DNA of 64,000 nt, taken from Loktanella sp. 3ANDIMAR09 (GTDB lineage: Bacteria; Pseudomonadota; Alphaproteobacteria; Rhodobacterales; Rhodobacteraceae). Below, piece by piece: positions 2,955 through 6,173 of this stretch (within the stretch, counting starts at the first letter, position 1; each line of letters opens with the position of its first letter). The translations under genes and the position numbers were made by a program. Under the pieces are notes generated by a model. That model saw only the letters and a program-made list of their open reading frames with translations, had not been told where the DNA came from and did not search any database. The stretch lies in contig NZ_LJAK01000001.1 in NCBI RefSeq assembly GCF_001420005.1, positions 248,001-312,000 on the forward strand, written 5' to 3'.

Positions 2955-3368
2955 ATGAAACGTCGCACGCTTCTCAAGGGCGTCATTGCAGCGCAGCTTG
3001 CGCTCGTGGCGAACCTCTCTCTTGCCGGTGCGGCCATCGCGCAATCGGCAGCATCTCGTGTCTCGCGCGCGTCGCGTCCTTCGCCAGCTTCACGCGCGAC
3101 ACGGCCCTCGCCCGCCTCACGCCCATCGCCGGTTTCGCGTCCCTCGCGCGTGTCGCGCCCGACCGCCCCATCGCGCGCATCGAATCCATCAACCGCCAGC
3201 CGCCCCTCTCGTCCCAGCCGATCAGAGGCACTGCTTCGCGGTCCAGAGGCCCGTGATCCGCAGCGCCGCGCGCAGGCCATCCAGTCGGTGCGGGCGGAAA
3301 TGCAACGTGACGGTCTGACGACGGTCAGTGATGCGAACCTGACCAGCGTGCTGGCGGCGTTCAAATGA
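2955..3368 (+). CDS. Exported protein with 20 perfect Ser/Thr tripeptide repeats
   Basis: The 137-residue protein begins with a Tat-like signal peptide (KRRTLLKG, then a hydrophobic stretch to AAIAQ about residue 30). Directly after it come residues 31-90: twenty consecutive triplets of the form [S/T]-[R/P/A/N/T]-x, where x is P, A or V in all but the last. Ser or Thr occupies every third position (31, 34, 37 ... 88) without one break. The C-terminal 47 residues are charged and probably helical (EALLRGPEARDPQRRAQ onward). The start was chosen at ATG 2955 because aaggag lies just before it; an upstream in-frame start has no such support. It overlaps the next gene by 4 bases. No known family is recognised. 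A period of three would place all hydroxyl side chains on one face of a polyproline-II helix. Confidence 0.8.
   Translation: MKRRTLLKGVIAAQLALVANLSLAGAAIAQSAASRVSRASRPSPASRATRPSPASRPSPVSRPSRVSRPTAPSRASNPSTASRPSRPSRSEALLRGPEARDPQRRAQAIQSVRAEMQRDGLTTVSDANLTSVLAAFK
3045..3224 (+). repeat. Coding tripeptide (9-base) repeat tract, 20 units
   Basis: The 180 bases encode residues 31-90 of the exported repeat protein. Units at protein level include SRP, SPA, SRV, SRA, SPV, TRP and TAP. At DNA level the Ser codons vary (tcg, tct, tca, tcc), so the regular protein pattern is not just the result of a recent exact DNA expansion; selection at protein level is the simpler reading. Confidence 0.85.
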
Positions 3369-3634
3369 CAAGGCGGACCTCGTTTCTGGTATTGGTCTGC
3401 GTCAGCCTTTCGGCCTGTACGGCCGGACTGCAGGAGGGACCAGATGCCGCGATGGCTGCCGCACTCGACAGCCAGCTCGACGGATTTGCGGGCACGACGA
3501 TGACGGGCCTGCCGTTCACCATCGTTGATACCGCCGCATCCGACCGTCAGCTGTGTCGGGTCGTGTCGGTCGAATCCCCGACGCGATTTGATGTCGACAC
3601 CTATTGCAAATCGCCCGGCGGCAGCTGGAGCTGA
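3365..3634 (+). CDS. Small lipoprotein resembling the RT0821/Lpp0805 surface-protein domain
   Basis: An 89-residue protein with a clear lipobox (SLSAC, lipidated Cys18) after a short hydrophobic signal, so it is expected to be anchored in a membrane facing the periplasm or surface. The C-terminal part contains CRVV at Cys64 and a C-K-S-P-G-G-S-W segment at Cys81. This resembles the closing motif (CR...., then AC-x-x-P-D-G-x-W) of small alphaproteobacterial surface antigen domains; the two Cys could form a disulfide. Its ATG overlaps the stop of the repeat-protein gene (ATGA), and the next gene begins 7 bases after its stop, so the three are probably co-translated. Confidence 0.75.
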   Translation: MTRRTSFLVLVCVSLSACTAGLQEGPDAAMAAALDSQLDGFAGTTMTGLPFTIVDTAASDRQLCRVVSVESPTRFDVDTYCKSPGGSWS

Positions 3635-3640
3635 GGCAGG

Positions 3641-4345
3641 TTGCCGGACCTGCACAGCGTCGAAAACCTGCATCTCAGCGCGGCCCCGCTTGGGGTCGCG
3701 ATCTACATTTCCGTACCAAGGTCTGTCCGCGCGCTCTTGGACCTGATCCTGTCGGGTTGGGTCTTCAAAAAGGCCAGCCCACCAATCGATCCGGATATCG
3801 CGATCACCTGGGATGGCAGATATGCGCTCTTGTCACCGCTCTACGCAGCCGAACGGCCGCACCGCGACATCATTGCGATCATCAATGAATTCATCGTGGC
3901 ACTTGGCTATGCCATCGCGCACCAACGCCCAGATTTGCAACTGATCCATGGGGCAGGCTTTGCGCTGGCGGGACGGACAACAGTCCTGTTCGGTGCCAGA
4001 AAGACCGGGAAGTCCACTTTCGTCGGTCGGATGGCGGCACAGGGCGCAACCGTATTTGCAGACGATATCCTGCTTTGGTCGCCCAAGGAGGCCCTTTTTT
4101 ACGCCGTCGGAGCATCGCCGCGCCTGCGCCGTCCCGTTCCTGACGACATTGTTGCCGGATTGGACCCGCGCGCGTTCATCGCAGGTCAGAATACATGCTA
4201 CCTCAACAGCGGCCGCGTCTCGGTTGCGGCAGCCGGACAGGCATTGATGCCGGATCGCTACATCGCACTGCGCGCAGACCACACGCAAAAGACGATCCGG
4301 TTTTGGGCGATCGTGAAACAGATCGCCGCCAACCGGATCGCCTGA
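3641..4345 (+). CDS. HPr kinase (HprK)-like P-loop protein
   Basis: A 234-residue soluble protein with the layout of HprK-type serine kinases: a variable N-terminal part (1-100), then LIHGAG (101-106), the Walker A loop GARKTGKST (118-126), and FADDILLW with tandem Asp141-Asp142. The C-terminal half is short and the HPr kinase/phosphorylase signature is not evident, so it is HprK-like rather than true HprK. Relatives in RiPP and lasso-peptide clusters phosphorylate Ser residues of exported peptides (family knowledge). Here it is the third gene behind a Ser-repeat protein. The start is a TTG with gaggcagg just upstream; no closer ATG fits. Function as a kinase is inference. Confidence 0.7.
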   Translation: MPDLHSVENLHLSAAPLGVAIYISVPRSVRALLDLILSGWVFKKASPPIDPDIAITWDGRYALLSPLYAAERPHRDIIAIINEFIVALGYAIAHQRPDLQLIHGAGFALAGRTTVLFGARKTGKSTFVGRMAAQGATVFADDILLWSPKEALFYAVGASPRLRRPVPDDIVAGLDPRAFIAGQNTCYLNSGRVSVAAAGQALMPDRYIALRADHTQKTIRFWAIVKQIAANRIA

Positions 4346-4349
4346 CCCG

Positions 4350-4940
4350 TCACAGAACCAGAACCTGCGTGCCCAGTTTGGTCATGTTGAACAACTCGGC
4401 GATATGTTCGTTGTACAGACCGATGCAGCCGTTGGATGACCGACGCCCGATCTTGCGCGTGTCATGGGTGCCGTGGATGCGGTAATACTGCCATGTCAGC
4501 CACAGCGCATGGGTGCCCAGCGGATTGTCGGGACCGGGACCGATGTAATCGGGCCATTCGGGGTTGCGTTCCTTCATCGACGGGGTCGGACGCCAGTCAG
4601 GGCCATCGACCTTTTTGATGATCTCGGTTTCACCACGGCGGGTCAGATCGTCGGTCAGCGGCACAGAGGTGGGATACAGCTTGTAGATGCTTTCGTCCTC
4701 GCTCCAGAAATGCAGCGCCCGGCTTTGCAGGTCGACGAGGATCGCACCATTCGTCAGGCTGCCAAAGTAGGGGCGCCAGTCCAGCGAACGGAAACTGGCG
4801 ACGTTGCGTGTGACGGCACTGCCACCGCGGATGTTGGCCTCCATCTCGGTGCTGTTGGCTTGCGCCAGCGCCGGCGTTGCAAGGGCGGCGGCACCCGTTG
4901 CCAGCATCGCGCGGCGCGTAATCAGGGTCGGTTTCTTCAT
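4350..4940 (-). CDS. L,D-transpeptidase (YkuD domain), Tat-type signal
   Basis: A 196-residue exported enzyme of the ErfK/YbiS/YkuD group, which forms 3-3 peptidoglycan cross-links or attaches proteins to peptidoglycan through a catalytic Cys. The signal peptide TRRAMLATGAAALATPALAQ has a twin-arginine motif. The catalytic signature HGTHDTRKIGRRSSNGCIG carries His156 and Cys172. ATG 4940 was preferred over a GTG three codons upstream because gaggtgg lies 5-8 bases before it. It ends 4 bases from the HprK-like gene, tail to tail, and its 5' end faces the CAP-domain gene, with about 160 bases of shared promoter region. Confidence 0.9.
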   Translation of the reverse strand: MKKPTLITRRAMLATGAAALATPALAQANSTEMEANIRGGSAVTRNVASFRSLDWRPYFGSLTNGAILVDLQSRALHFWSEDESIYKLYPTSVPLTDDLTRRGETEIIKKVDGPDWRPTPSMKERNPEWPDYIGPGPDNPLGTHALWLTWQYYRIHGTHDTRKIGRRSSNGCIGLYNEHIAELFNMTKLGTQVLVL

Positions 4941-5100
4941 CAAATCCACCTCGGGTTCTTATTTTGCTTTTGCTACGGATATGCGGCGCGTATCCAGCGG
5001 ACAATTCAAACTTGCGTGCATTGGGCAAAGCCTTGCCGAAGCGTGTTTGATTAGCACCGCAAGCTCGCGTAACACAGAGCTGAATTTGAAGGATCACCTG

Positions 5101-5673
5101 ATGCATCGACGCCTTGTTCTGACTGGTCTGGCCGCCGTGACACTGACCGCCTGCGCACGCGCACCGCGTGGCCGGATCGGCCCTGACGGCCTGCCGCTGC
5201 CGCAGGTCTACAATATTCAGCCCGGCGACGAGGATGACATCCAGTTTCGCATGCTGGACAGCGTGAACACCCTGCGTCGCGCCGCCGGCGTGGCACCTGT
5301 GGAACTGGACCCGCAGCTGACCGCAGCTGCTGCCACCCATGCCCGTGACATGCGGGCCCAGAACCGTCCCTGGTTGTTCGGGTCTGACGGATCGTCACCG
5401 CTGGACCGCGCGCGGATCGCCGGTTTCCAAGGACGGATTCTGGGGGAAAACATCTCTGAATCTTACGAGACAGAGCTGGAAACCCTCGCCGCCTGGATGA
5501 AGCAGGAAGACACGCGCCGTGTGGTGTTGGACCCGGCCGCGCGGCGCATGGGCCTTGCCTGGTCGCAAGAGGCAAACGGCAAGCTGTGGTGGACGATGAA
5601 CATGGGTAGCGACCCGTTCGCACAGGCACCGATCGCCAGTGTCGCAGGGTTCACCCCCGCGATCACGCGCTAG
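5101..5673 (+). CDS. CAP-domain (SCP/PR-1) lipoprotein
   Basis: A 190-residue lipoprotein: signal with lipobox TLTAC (Cys18), then a CAP domain. MLDSVNTLRRAAGVAPVELD, THARDMRAQN (with the family His) and GENISES (with the family Glu) are the recognisable CAP motifs; the C-terminal part ends with MGLAW and KLWWTMNMG. Bacterial CAP proteins are extracytoplasmic and mostly of unknown biochemical role. ATG 5101 follows gaaggatcacctg, so this start is preferred to any of the longer in-frame alternatives. It lies between two divergently placed L,D-transpeptidase genes and overlaps the second one tail to tail by 4 bases, suggesting an envelope role. Confidence 0.85.
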   Translation: MHRRLVLTGLAAVTLTACARAPRGRIGPDGLPLPQVYNIQPGDEDDIQFRMLDSVNTLRRAAGVAPVELDPQLTAAAATHARDMRAQNRPWLFGSDGSSPLDRARIAGFQGRILGENISESYETELETLAAWMKQEDTRRVVLDPAARRMGLAWSQEANGKLWWTMNMGSDPFAQAPIASVAGFTPAITR

Positions 5674-6173
5674 GGGTAAATAAAGATCGGCGTGCCGTCG
5701 CGCACCATTGCATATATCTCTTCGATCTCGGCATTGGTGACGGCGATACAGCCCCAGGTCCAGTCGGGCTGTCCGATATACATCTCTGGCGTGCCGTGGA
5801 TAAAGATATCGCCGCCCGGCGATTTGCCCATGGCGCGTGCGACCGCGATATCGCGCGCGTTCGGATAGGAAATGCCCAGCGACAGGTGAAACCGGCTGTT
5901 GGGGTTGCGGCGATTGATGCGATACGCGCCTTCGGGCGTGCGACCGTCACCTTCGACGACCTTGTGACCTTCGGGGGCAAAGCCCATTTCCATGTCGTAT
6001 TGCCGCAACAATTGATTGTTGTGCAGCAATTGCAGAATGCGCTGGCCCTTGAACACCTGAACGCGTGTCACCTCTGGACCATCATAGGTCAGAAAACGCG
6101 CTGGTTTCCCGGCACAGGCTGCGAGCAATGCGCCCAGTGCCCCGAAAATGGCGAAACGTCGTGTCAGGTTCAT
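5670..6173 (-). CDS. L,D-transpeptidase, lipoprotein type
   Basis: A 167-residue YkuD-domain enzyme with a lipobox (LLAAC, Cys20) after an Arg-Arg N-terminus, so probably membrane-anchored, unlike the soluble paralogue at 4350-4940. It starts its YkuD fold at about residue 36 (VTRVQVFKGQRILQL) and has the active-site block HGTPEMYIGQ followed by DWTWGCIAVTN, giving His126 and Cys142. The two L,D-transpeptidases are divergent in sequence outside the motif, so they are not a recent duplication. The stop overlaps that of the CAP gene. Confidence 0.9.
   Translation of the reverse strand: MNLTRRFAIFGALGALLAACAGKPARFLTYDGPEVTRVQVFKGQRILQLLHNNQLLRQYDMEMGFAPEGHKVVEGDGRTPEGAYRINRRNPNSRFHLSLGISYPNARDIAVARAMGKSPGGDIFIHGTPEMYIGQPDWTWGCIAVTNAEIEEIYAMVRDGTPIFIYP

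Follow-up and report, generated by a model that had tools for sequence, protein, structure and literature searches.

An HprK-like kinase gene beside a gene for a Tat-signal protein of Ser/Thr triplets in Loktanella sp. 3ANDIMAR09 and its relatives

Related kinases and serine repeats

Regular Ser repeats that are phosphorylated many times over are familiar from dentin phosphophoryn (DSS repeats) and the SR proteins, which are eukaryotic and are served by other kinases; to our knowledge, phosphorylation at many sites has hardly been described for secreted proteins of bacteria. In RiPP pathways, PqqD-type domains bind the leaders of the peptides to be modified, and the Tat system carries folded or finished proteins. 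According to a published review, the lasso-peptide kinases PadeK, ThcoK and SyanK phosphorylate Ser in their precursor peptides and depend on a His-Lys-Asp-Asp set of residues (PMC9266682). The locus described here lies in a 64-kb stretch of Loktanella sp. 3ANDIMAR09 DNA, hereafter the window, and consists of three genes called A, B and K. K carries the same four residues and would likewise act on Ser of a partner protein. The lasso kinases address one C-terminal Ser, whereas the proposed substrates here are Tat-signal proteins with some 8-20 repeat Ser. PqqD-type proteins are shared with the lasso pathways (TbiB1 and TfuB1 are matched by the PqqD part of a profile described below), but here PqqD is fused to the kinase, except in the window, which has none. 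No lasso protease or cyclase was seen on reading the three genes of the operon.

Two further comparisons place the kinase. With HprK it shares the P-loop, His and Asp-Asp motifs, and the profile of a sister family matches solved HPr kinases; it differs in that the partner is an exported repeat protein, in that the operon, as read, holds no HPr gene, and in that only the P-loop region is similar. Among NCBIfam models, the pair TIGR04352 and TIGR04353 ('HPr-rel-A system PqqD family peptide chaperone') comes nearest, TIGR04352 being the best NCBIfam match of K and of the PqqD-bearing kinases tested, although the scores, between 18.6 and 60.1 bits, fall short of the cut-off of 200, the kinase of one genome (G047) is unmatched, and the model names omit a Ser-triplet partner. 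Kinases of this kind are already known, as lasso kinases and as HprK-related kinase A of NCBIfam. New to us are the substrate made of repeats, the Tat leader that it carries and the branch without PqqD, and searches of an open-licence library gave no description of the kinase/Ser-triplet pairing.

The A-B-K operon and its kinase

The features of the operon in the window are as follows.

2955..3368, plus strand: A, the proposed substrate, 137 aa, with a Tat-like signal, 20 Ser/Thr-first triplets and a conserved C-terminal tail
2955..3044, plus strand: Tat-like signal peptide of A, MKRRTLLKG...AGAAIAQ by translation, with an AxA-type cleavage region
3045..3224, plus strand: Ser/Thr-x-x triplet tract of A, residues 31-90, from translation and run statistics
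3225..3365, plus strand: C-terminal part of A, with the tail DGL..VS...(V)L..F invariant in 4/4 orthologues
3365..3634, plus strand: B, an 89-aa lipoprotein with the lipobox LSAC and the conserved end LCRxV...YCKxxGGxW
3641..4345, plus strand: K, an HprK-like kinase without a PqqD domain, with H103, K124, D141 and D142 invariant in 4/4

Gene A begins at the ATG at 2955, preceded by AAGGAGAG. The start of B falls inside the stop of A, giving an overlap of four bases (ATGA, 3365-3368), and six bases (3635-3640) separate B from K, for which TTG is the likeliest, though not a certain, start. A promoter and terminator scan found none. The original prediction, made from the DNA letters and their open reading frames, had drawn this arrangement correctly, from the 20 triplets behind a Tat-like signal to the overlapping lipoprotein gene and the P-loop protein with GARKTGKST and FADD, except that it placed the third gene seven bases on. 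Downstream of the operon, two genes that read as L,D-transpeptidase-like lie on the minus strand at 4350-4949 and 5670-6173; they flank a CAP-like gene, and the first of the pair has a Tat-like signal.

The tract of A (residues 31-90) has Ser or Thr at the first place of 20/20 triplets without a break. Given its composition (22 Ser/Thr in 60 residues), the chance of one full phase is about 1.7e-13, a value computed after the tract had been picked out. Among the other open reading frames of at least 50 aa in the 64-kb window, no second Ser/Thr run of more than seven was found. Recent duplication of a DNA repeat was considered as the origin of the tract and rejected, since all 20 nine-base units differ and the codons are mixed (TCG, TCA, TCT and AGC for Ser; ACA and ACC for Thr). 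With no two units alike and Ser codons of both the TCN and the AGC type, the pattern is held at the protein level, in agreement with what had been proposed from codon choice.

With K as the query, close relatives were found in 3/197 other genomes of the family, at 43, 34 and 30% identity, and all three keep the order repeat protein, lipoprotein, kinase (A orthologues in loci L002, L003 and L004). The operon is present in 4/394 family genomes belonging to four genera, namely the window genome (G000), Citreimonas salinaria (G047), an uncultured Lutimaribacter MAG (G041) and G045. A profile of B run over the 394 genomes matched these four strongly and one other weakly (E 6.8e-4). Within the genus of the window genome, 0/8 other genomes held a close K relative and two gave weak matches. 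In the related-locus search, the single K query found none and the K profile (A1) returned two already-known loci only. The linkage of kinase and repeat protein on which the original prediction depended was thus found in three other genera, and it also rests on a second, larger kinase lineage that adjoins Tat-signal Ser-triplet proteins.

The repeat itself varies among the four A proteins, reading SEPSAASEPSAA in G047 and SGPSGPSGP in G041, while in G045 an 8-9 residue unit, SGASRNDS, no longer keeps to strict triplets, although it is still dense in Ser. In the tail, D119 G120 L121, V124 S125, V132 L133 and F136 are invariant in 4/4. Twin Arg is present in the signal of 4/4 A proteins and TatC is encoded in 4/4 of the genomes, which marks A as a predicted Tat substrate. 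No PqqD gene was detected in G000 or G045 at E<=0.001, and G041 and G047 carry one elsewhere. Downstream of K, G041 and G045 have a PepSY_TM-type gene.

As judged from motifs and profiles, K is a distant relative of the HPr kinases. It shows the motif set of the superfamily, a GxxxxGKS P-loop (GARKTGKST) with an upstream His (IHGAGF) and a downstream Asp-Asp (FADD). Against Pfam it gave no match at cut-off and no PqqD at E<=1; against NCBIfam it matched HprK-related kinase A (TIGR04352) weakly, with E 3.7e-5 and 23 bits against a cut-off of 200, and a FomB-type kinase model weakly, with E 2e-4. The other three short K proteins scored 26.6, 18.6 and no match (G047) with TIGR04352. Neither the K sequence nor a four-row K profile matched an HPr kinase among solved structures, the sequence matching a P-loop transporter alone (E 0.0049). 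The AlphaFold2 model of K, made from three sequences, had a mean pLDDT of 45.4, too poor for use, and Foldseek comparison of this low-confidence model with structures gave no match at E<=0.001. Aligned with hhalign, the K profile and that of the PqqD-bearing kinases proved homologous across 194 columns, with a probability of 99.6% and E 1.5e-23. In a midpoint-rooted tree of 60 kinase domains with several long branches, the four short K proteins grouped as a single clade (100/99), which a long branch sets apart from the PqqD-kinases. The pairing of Ser triplets with a kinase is either ancient or arose twice.

PqqD-fused kinases, their leaders and Ser-triplet partners

The longer and weaker matches to K were mostly proteins of about 400 aa in which an HprK-like part is followed by a PqqD domain, and Pfam PqqD was above cut-off in 4/4 PqqD-kinases tested. 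This family, its leader motif and the further kinds of substrate are found beyond the window, out of reach of the original prediction. In the 13 proteins from which a profile (A4) was built, H106, K127, D144 and D145 are invariant. The kinase part of A4 matched solved HPr kinases (3tqf, E 3.3e-5; 1ko7, 1jb1 and 2qmh, about 3e-3) and the C-terminal part matched PqqD/lasso B1 proteins (TbiB1, 2.2e-6; TfuB1, 1.3e-4). With TIGR04352, four PqqD-kinases scored 32.1-60.1 bits against the cut-off of 200. The profile comparison advised by the original prediction came out weak for K itself against HprK models, and it was through the sister family that the HPr kinases and the lasso B1 proteins were reached.

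At E<=1e-20, A4 matched 31/394 family genomes, or 29 once the short K of G000 and G041 is taken away; in 27 of the 29 the match spanned both parts, in G123 it fell into two pieces and in G374 it was limited to the kinase part. With the threshold at E<=1e-15, A4 matched 26/289 genomes of the class, G000 included, with the PqqD part often a separate match, and 6/299 genomes of a phylum sample, again including G000, where G726 and G758, of another class, were matched at full length. The K profile A1 at 1e-12 found 13/289 class genomes, and the 12 besides G000 were all matched by A4 too. Plasmid records from Shinella and Paracoccus marcusii annotate the kinase only as 'PqqD family protein' and place it beside an S8 peptidase gene. 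In several members outside the family (L098, L136-L152), kinase and PqqD are encoded by two different genes. One genome without an A4 match at 1e-20 has, at L195:3530-6040, an NTP_transf_5 gene together with genes for a short RR protein and for a protein of reversed order, PqqD first and HPr-kinase-type part second.

The partners of these kinases share a leader motif, RR...AYxAP...AxA. Thirty leaders aligned without gaps, with RR, Y18, P21, A29 and A31 invariant, an invariance that is partly by construction, as the rows were picked by a pattern demanding RR, Y/G, P/T and a final A. The resulting profile (A5; 30 rows from 24 of the 28 positive genomes) was searched in 80 genomes. It was found in 28/28 genomes with a PqqD-bearing kinase (best E 3.6e-11 or lower) and in 0/5 whose kinase has no PqqD match (G000, G041, G045, G047 and G374). 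The four held-out genomes (G061, G211, G290 and G355), in all of which the leader was found, and the 47 negatives are unaffected by the picking pattern. These negatives, which were the lowest-numbered genomes without an A4 match at 1e-20 and not a random draw, gave two weak matches (E 2.2e-4 and 4.5e-4). In one of the two, G007, a nucleotidyltransferase-like gene clusters with a gene for a PqqD+HPr-kinase-type protein; the other, G019, has an ordinary-looking Tat-signal binding protein. The PqqD domain of the kinase and the leader of the partner go together. In the window genome, no A5 match was found at E<=0.01 and the AYxAP motif is missing from the signal peptide of A, so that the marks of a PqqD/RRE-guided, RiPP-like pathway (PqqD on the kinase or in the genome, and a leader on the substrate) are absent there.

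The leader extends beyond the Ser triplets. Two members from another class have the leaders LATLGVAAATAYVAPTL and LTSLGLGAAALYVAPTL ahead of SRPSY-type repeats with a period of five. Distant Alphaproteobacteria (L147, L148 and L143) keep the leader with other cores, and the few Ser in L147 and L148 imply that the link between leader and kinase is wider than that between Ser triplets and kinase. Some of the distant members among L098 and L136-L152 keep it ahead of Gly/Lys-rich or NPDP cores. At L192:3773-4222, a leader protein with SYSRPSYSRPSFSRPS repeats lies on a contig other than that of the kinase (G391) and is a possible substrate in trans.

Ser triplets beside PqqD-kinases were counted at 29 family loci (L037-L051, L053 and L120-L132), L052 having been left out beforehand for its missing PqqD part and outlying position in the alignment. 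An open reading frame counted as a partner if it lay on the same strand as the kinase, no further than 1.2 kb away, and had RR among its first 130 residues. A Tat-type partner with a Ser/Thr run of at least six triplets adjoined the kinase at 24/29 loci, of at least eight at 19/29 and of at least ten at 17/29. For all open reading frames of at least 50 aa, in any frame, more than 2.5 kb from the kinase at the same loci, the count was 4/967 for at least six and 0/967 for at least eight. The loci without a run of six comprise three with Ser/Gly/Arg-rich cores and shorter runs (L045, L053 and L129), one whose core is masked (L050) and L131, where no partner was seen and the kinase has no PqqD match.

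Triplet composition was taken from 26 cores with runs of at least eight (348 triplets; three cores from the window's branch and four from outside the family), being those that passed the leader filter, which missed some long-run loci (e.g. L041 and L122). The first position holds Ser in 326 and Thr in 22, one or the other being required by construction; the second holds Gly (74), Arg (74), Ala (72), Ser (30), Glu (25), Pro (23) and others; the third holds Pro (162), Ala (103), Ser (49) and few others. Per triplet, the charge extends from -0.73 (SEP, L038) to +1.00 (SRP/TRP, L043). Composition and charge range together indicate that the neighbours change the sign of their charge while Ser and the Pro/Ala of the third place stay. 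This variation sets the bacterial cores apart from dentin phosphophoryn and the SR proteins, and the suggestion of a bacterial analogue of SR-protein phosphorylation does not hold in general, as Arg follows Ser/Thr in 74/348 triplets only.

Neighbouring genes and the proposed modification

From the gene pairs and residue patterns described above, the A-B-K operon probably makes an exported protein that would be phosphorylated on many Ser before it leaves the cell. The kinase would phosphorylate the repeat Ser in the cytoplasm and Tat would then export the phosphorylated product. This order of events, put forward in the original prediction, is the best reading because the linkage is conserved and the His-Lys-Asp-Asp set is kept, the phosphorylation itself being inferred. 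In lineages with PqqD, that domain would grip the leader as in RiPP pathways and the kinase domain would transfer phosphate along the Sxx repeat. Because K has no PqqD and A no leader motif, K must find A in another way in the window's branch; it may dock elsewhere on A, and the conserved tail is perhaps a candidate docking site.

The neighbouring genes bear on an alternative in which the kinase regulates export or expression through one site (leader, tail or another protein) and the Ser triplets form a disordered low-complexity linker. Linkers rich in Ser, Pro, Ala and Gly are common in exported proteins, and in some leader proteins a folded domain does follow the Ser-rich part. Pfam PepSY was over cut-off in one of three proteins tested (L047, with no match at 0.001 in those of L121 and L130) and Pfam S8 in 2/2 tested. 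A sigma factor or a two-component pair is often present at kinase loci. In 8/58 loci, the genes after the kinase encode another Ser-triplet leader protein and then a response regulator with a histidine kinase, and an S8 subtilase with a sigma factor occurs in six; PepSY_TM genes accompany a short K at L035 and L036 and a PqqD-kinase at L040. These neighbour types were defined by small profiles from few of the same loci, which makes the counts partly circular, the PepSY_TM profile coming from exactly the three loci counted. Second Ser-triplet Tat proteins were seen between a PqqD-kinase and a two-component pair at L042:4913-5416 and L047:2632-3189. Against a purely regulatory kinase stand the period of three, with Ser kept while the charge of its neighbours changes, and the occurrence of triplets beside two deeply separate kinase lineages when they are so rare in background open reading frames. 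We regard this alternative as unlikely, though it is the strongest of the three considered.

S8 subtilase-type proteins with this kind of Tat leader and a linker rich in Ser/Gly/Arg or Asp lie at L039:4020-5336, L132:6599-8014, L129:6662-7996, L126:3188-4630, L127:3474-5138 and L197:1735-3072; four of the six end in SGE, and they are probable further substrates of the kinase. Of the six loci that pair an S8 subtilase with a sigma factor, the five that were read show this combination of leader and linker. The PepSY_TM-type proteins of L003 and L040 are 47% identical, which provides a link between the short-K and PqqD-kinase branches.

Less probable still is that the Ser phosphate is a step towards another product, either dehydroalanine or a group added by the NTP_transf_5-like nucleotidyltransferase of distant members. 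Phosphorylation followed by elimination is known from lanthipeptides, and NTP_transf_5-like genes lie near the kinase in 9/58 loci (Pfam confirmed in the two tested). All nine are outside the window's family, however, none of the 32 family loci scanned has such a gene, and no lyase was seen on reading the three genes of the operon. That K is a small-molecule kinase comparable to the FomB-like phosphonate kinases, to which its weak FomB-type match points, and adjoins A through shared regulation only, is very improbable given the Ser-rich twin-arginine neighbour in 4/4 A-B-K genomes and 24/29 PqqD-kinase loci and the peptide-binding function established for PqqD domains in RiPP pathways.

Phosphorylation of the repeat before export is thus the preferred reading, and the conserved pairing of Ser triplets and kinase suggests that exported proteins acquire many phosphates by a route not described before. 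More tentatively, and a little short of likely in our estimation, the loci may represent a class of exported phosphoproteins in the Alphaproteobacteria and at least one other class, in which a PqqD-guided HprK-type kinase would read a Tat leader and phosphorylate every third residue of an SxP/SxA rod before export. Such rods would occur both by themselves and as modified linkers of envelope enzymes (PepSY proteins and S8 subtilases), and the window operon would be a second, PqqD-independent branch in which the same kind of substrate was kept or re-evolved. Outside the cell, A and the lipoprotein B would probably form a phosphate-rich extended layer or a tether at the envelope; metal-ion binding, our first guess at a role in view of how often PepSY and PepSY_TM genes lie nearby, is doubtful. 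If the preferred reading is true, a likely substrate can be named for the little-studied HprK/PqqD kinase family, leader-guided modification would take place ahead of Tat export, and a simple gene-encoded pair of kinase and repeat would provide a route to regularly phosphorylated rods.
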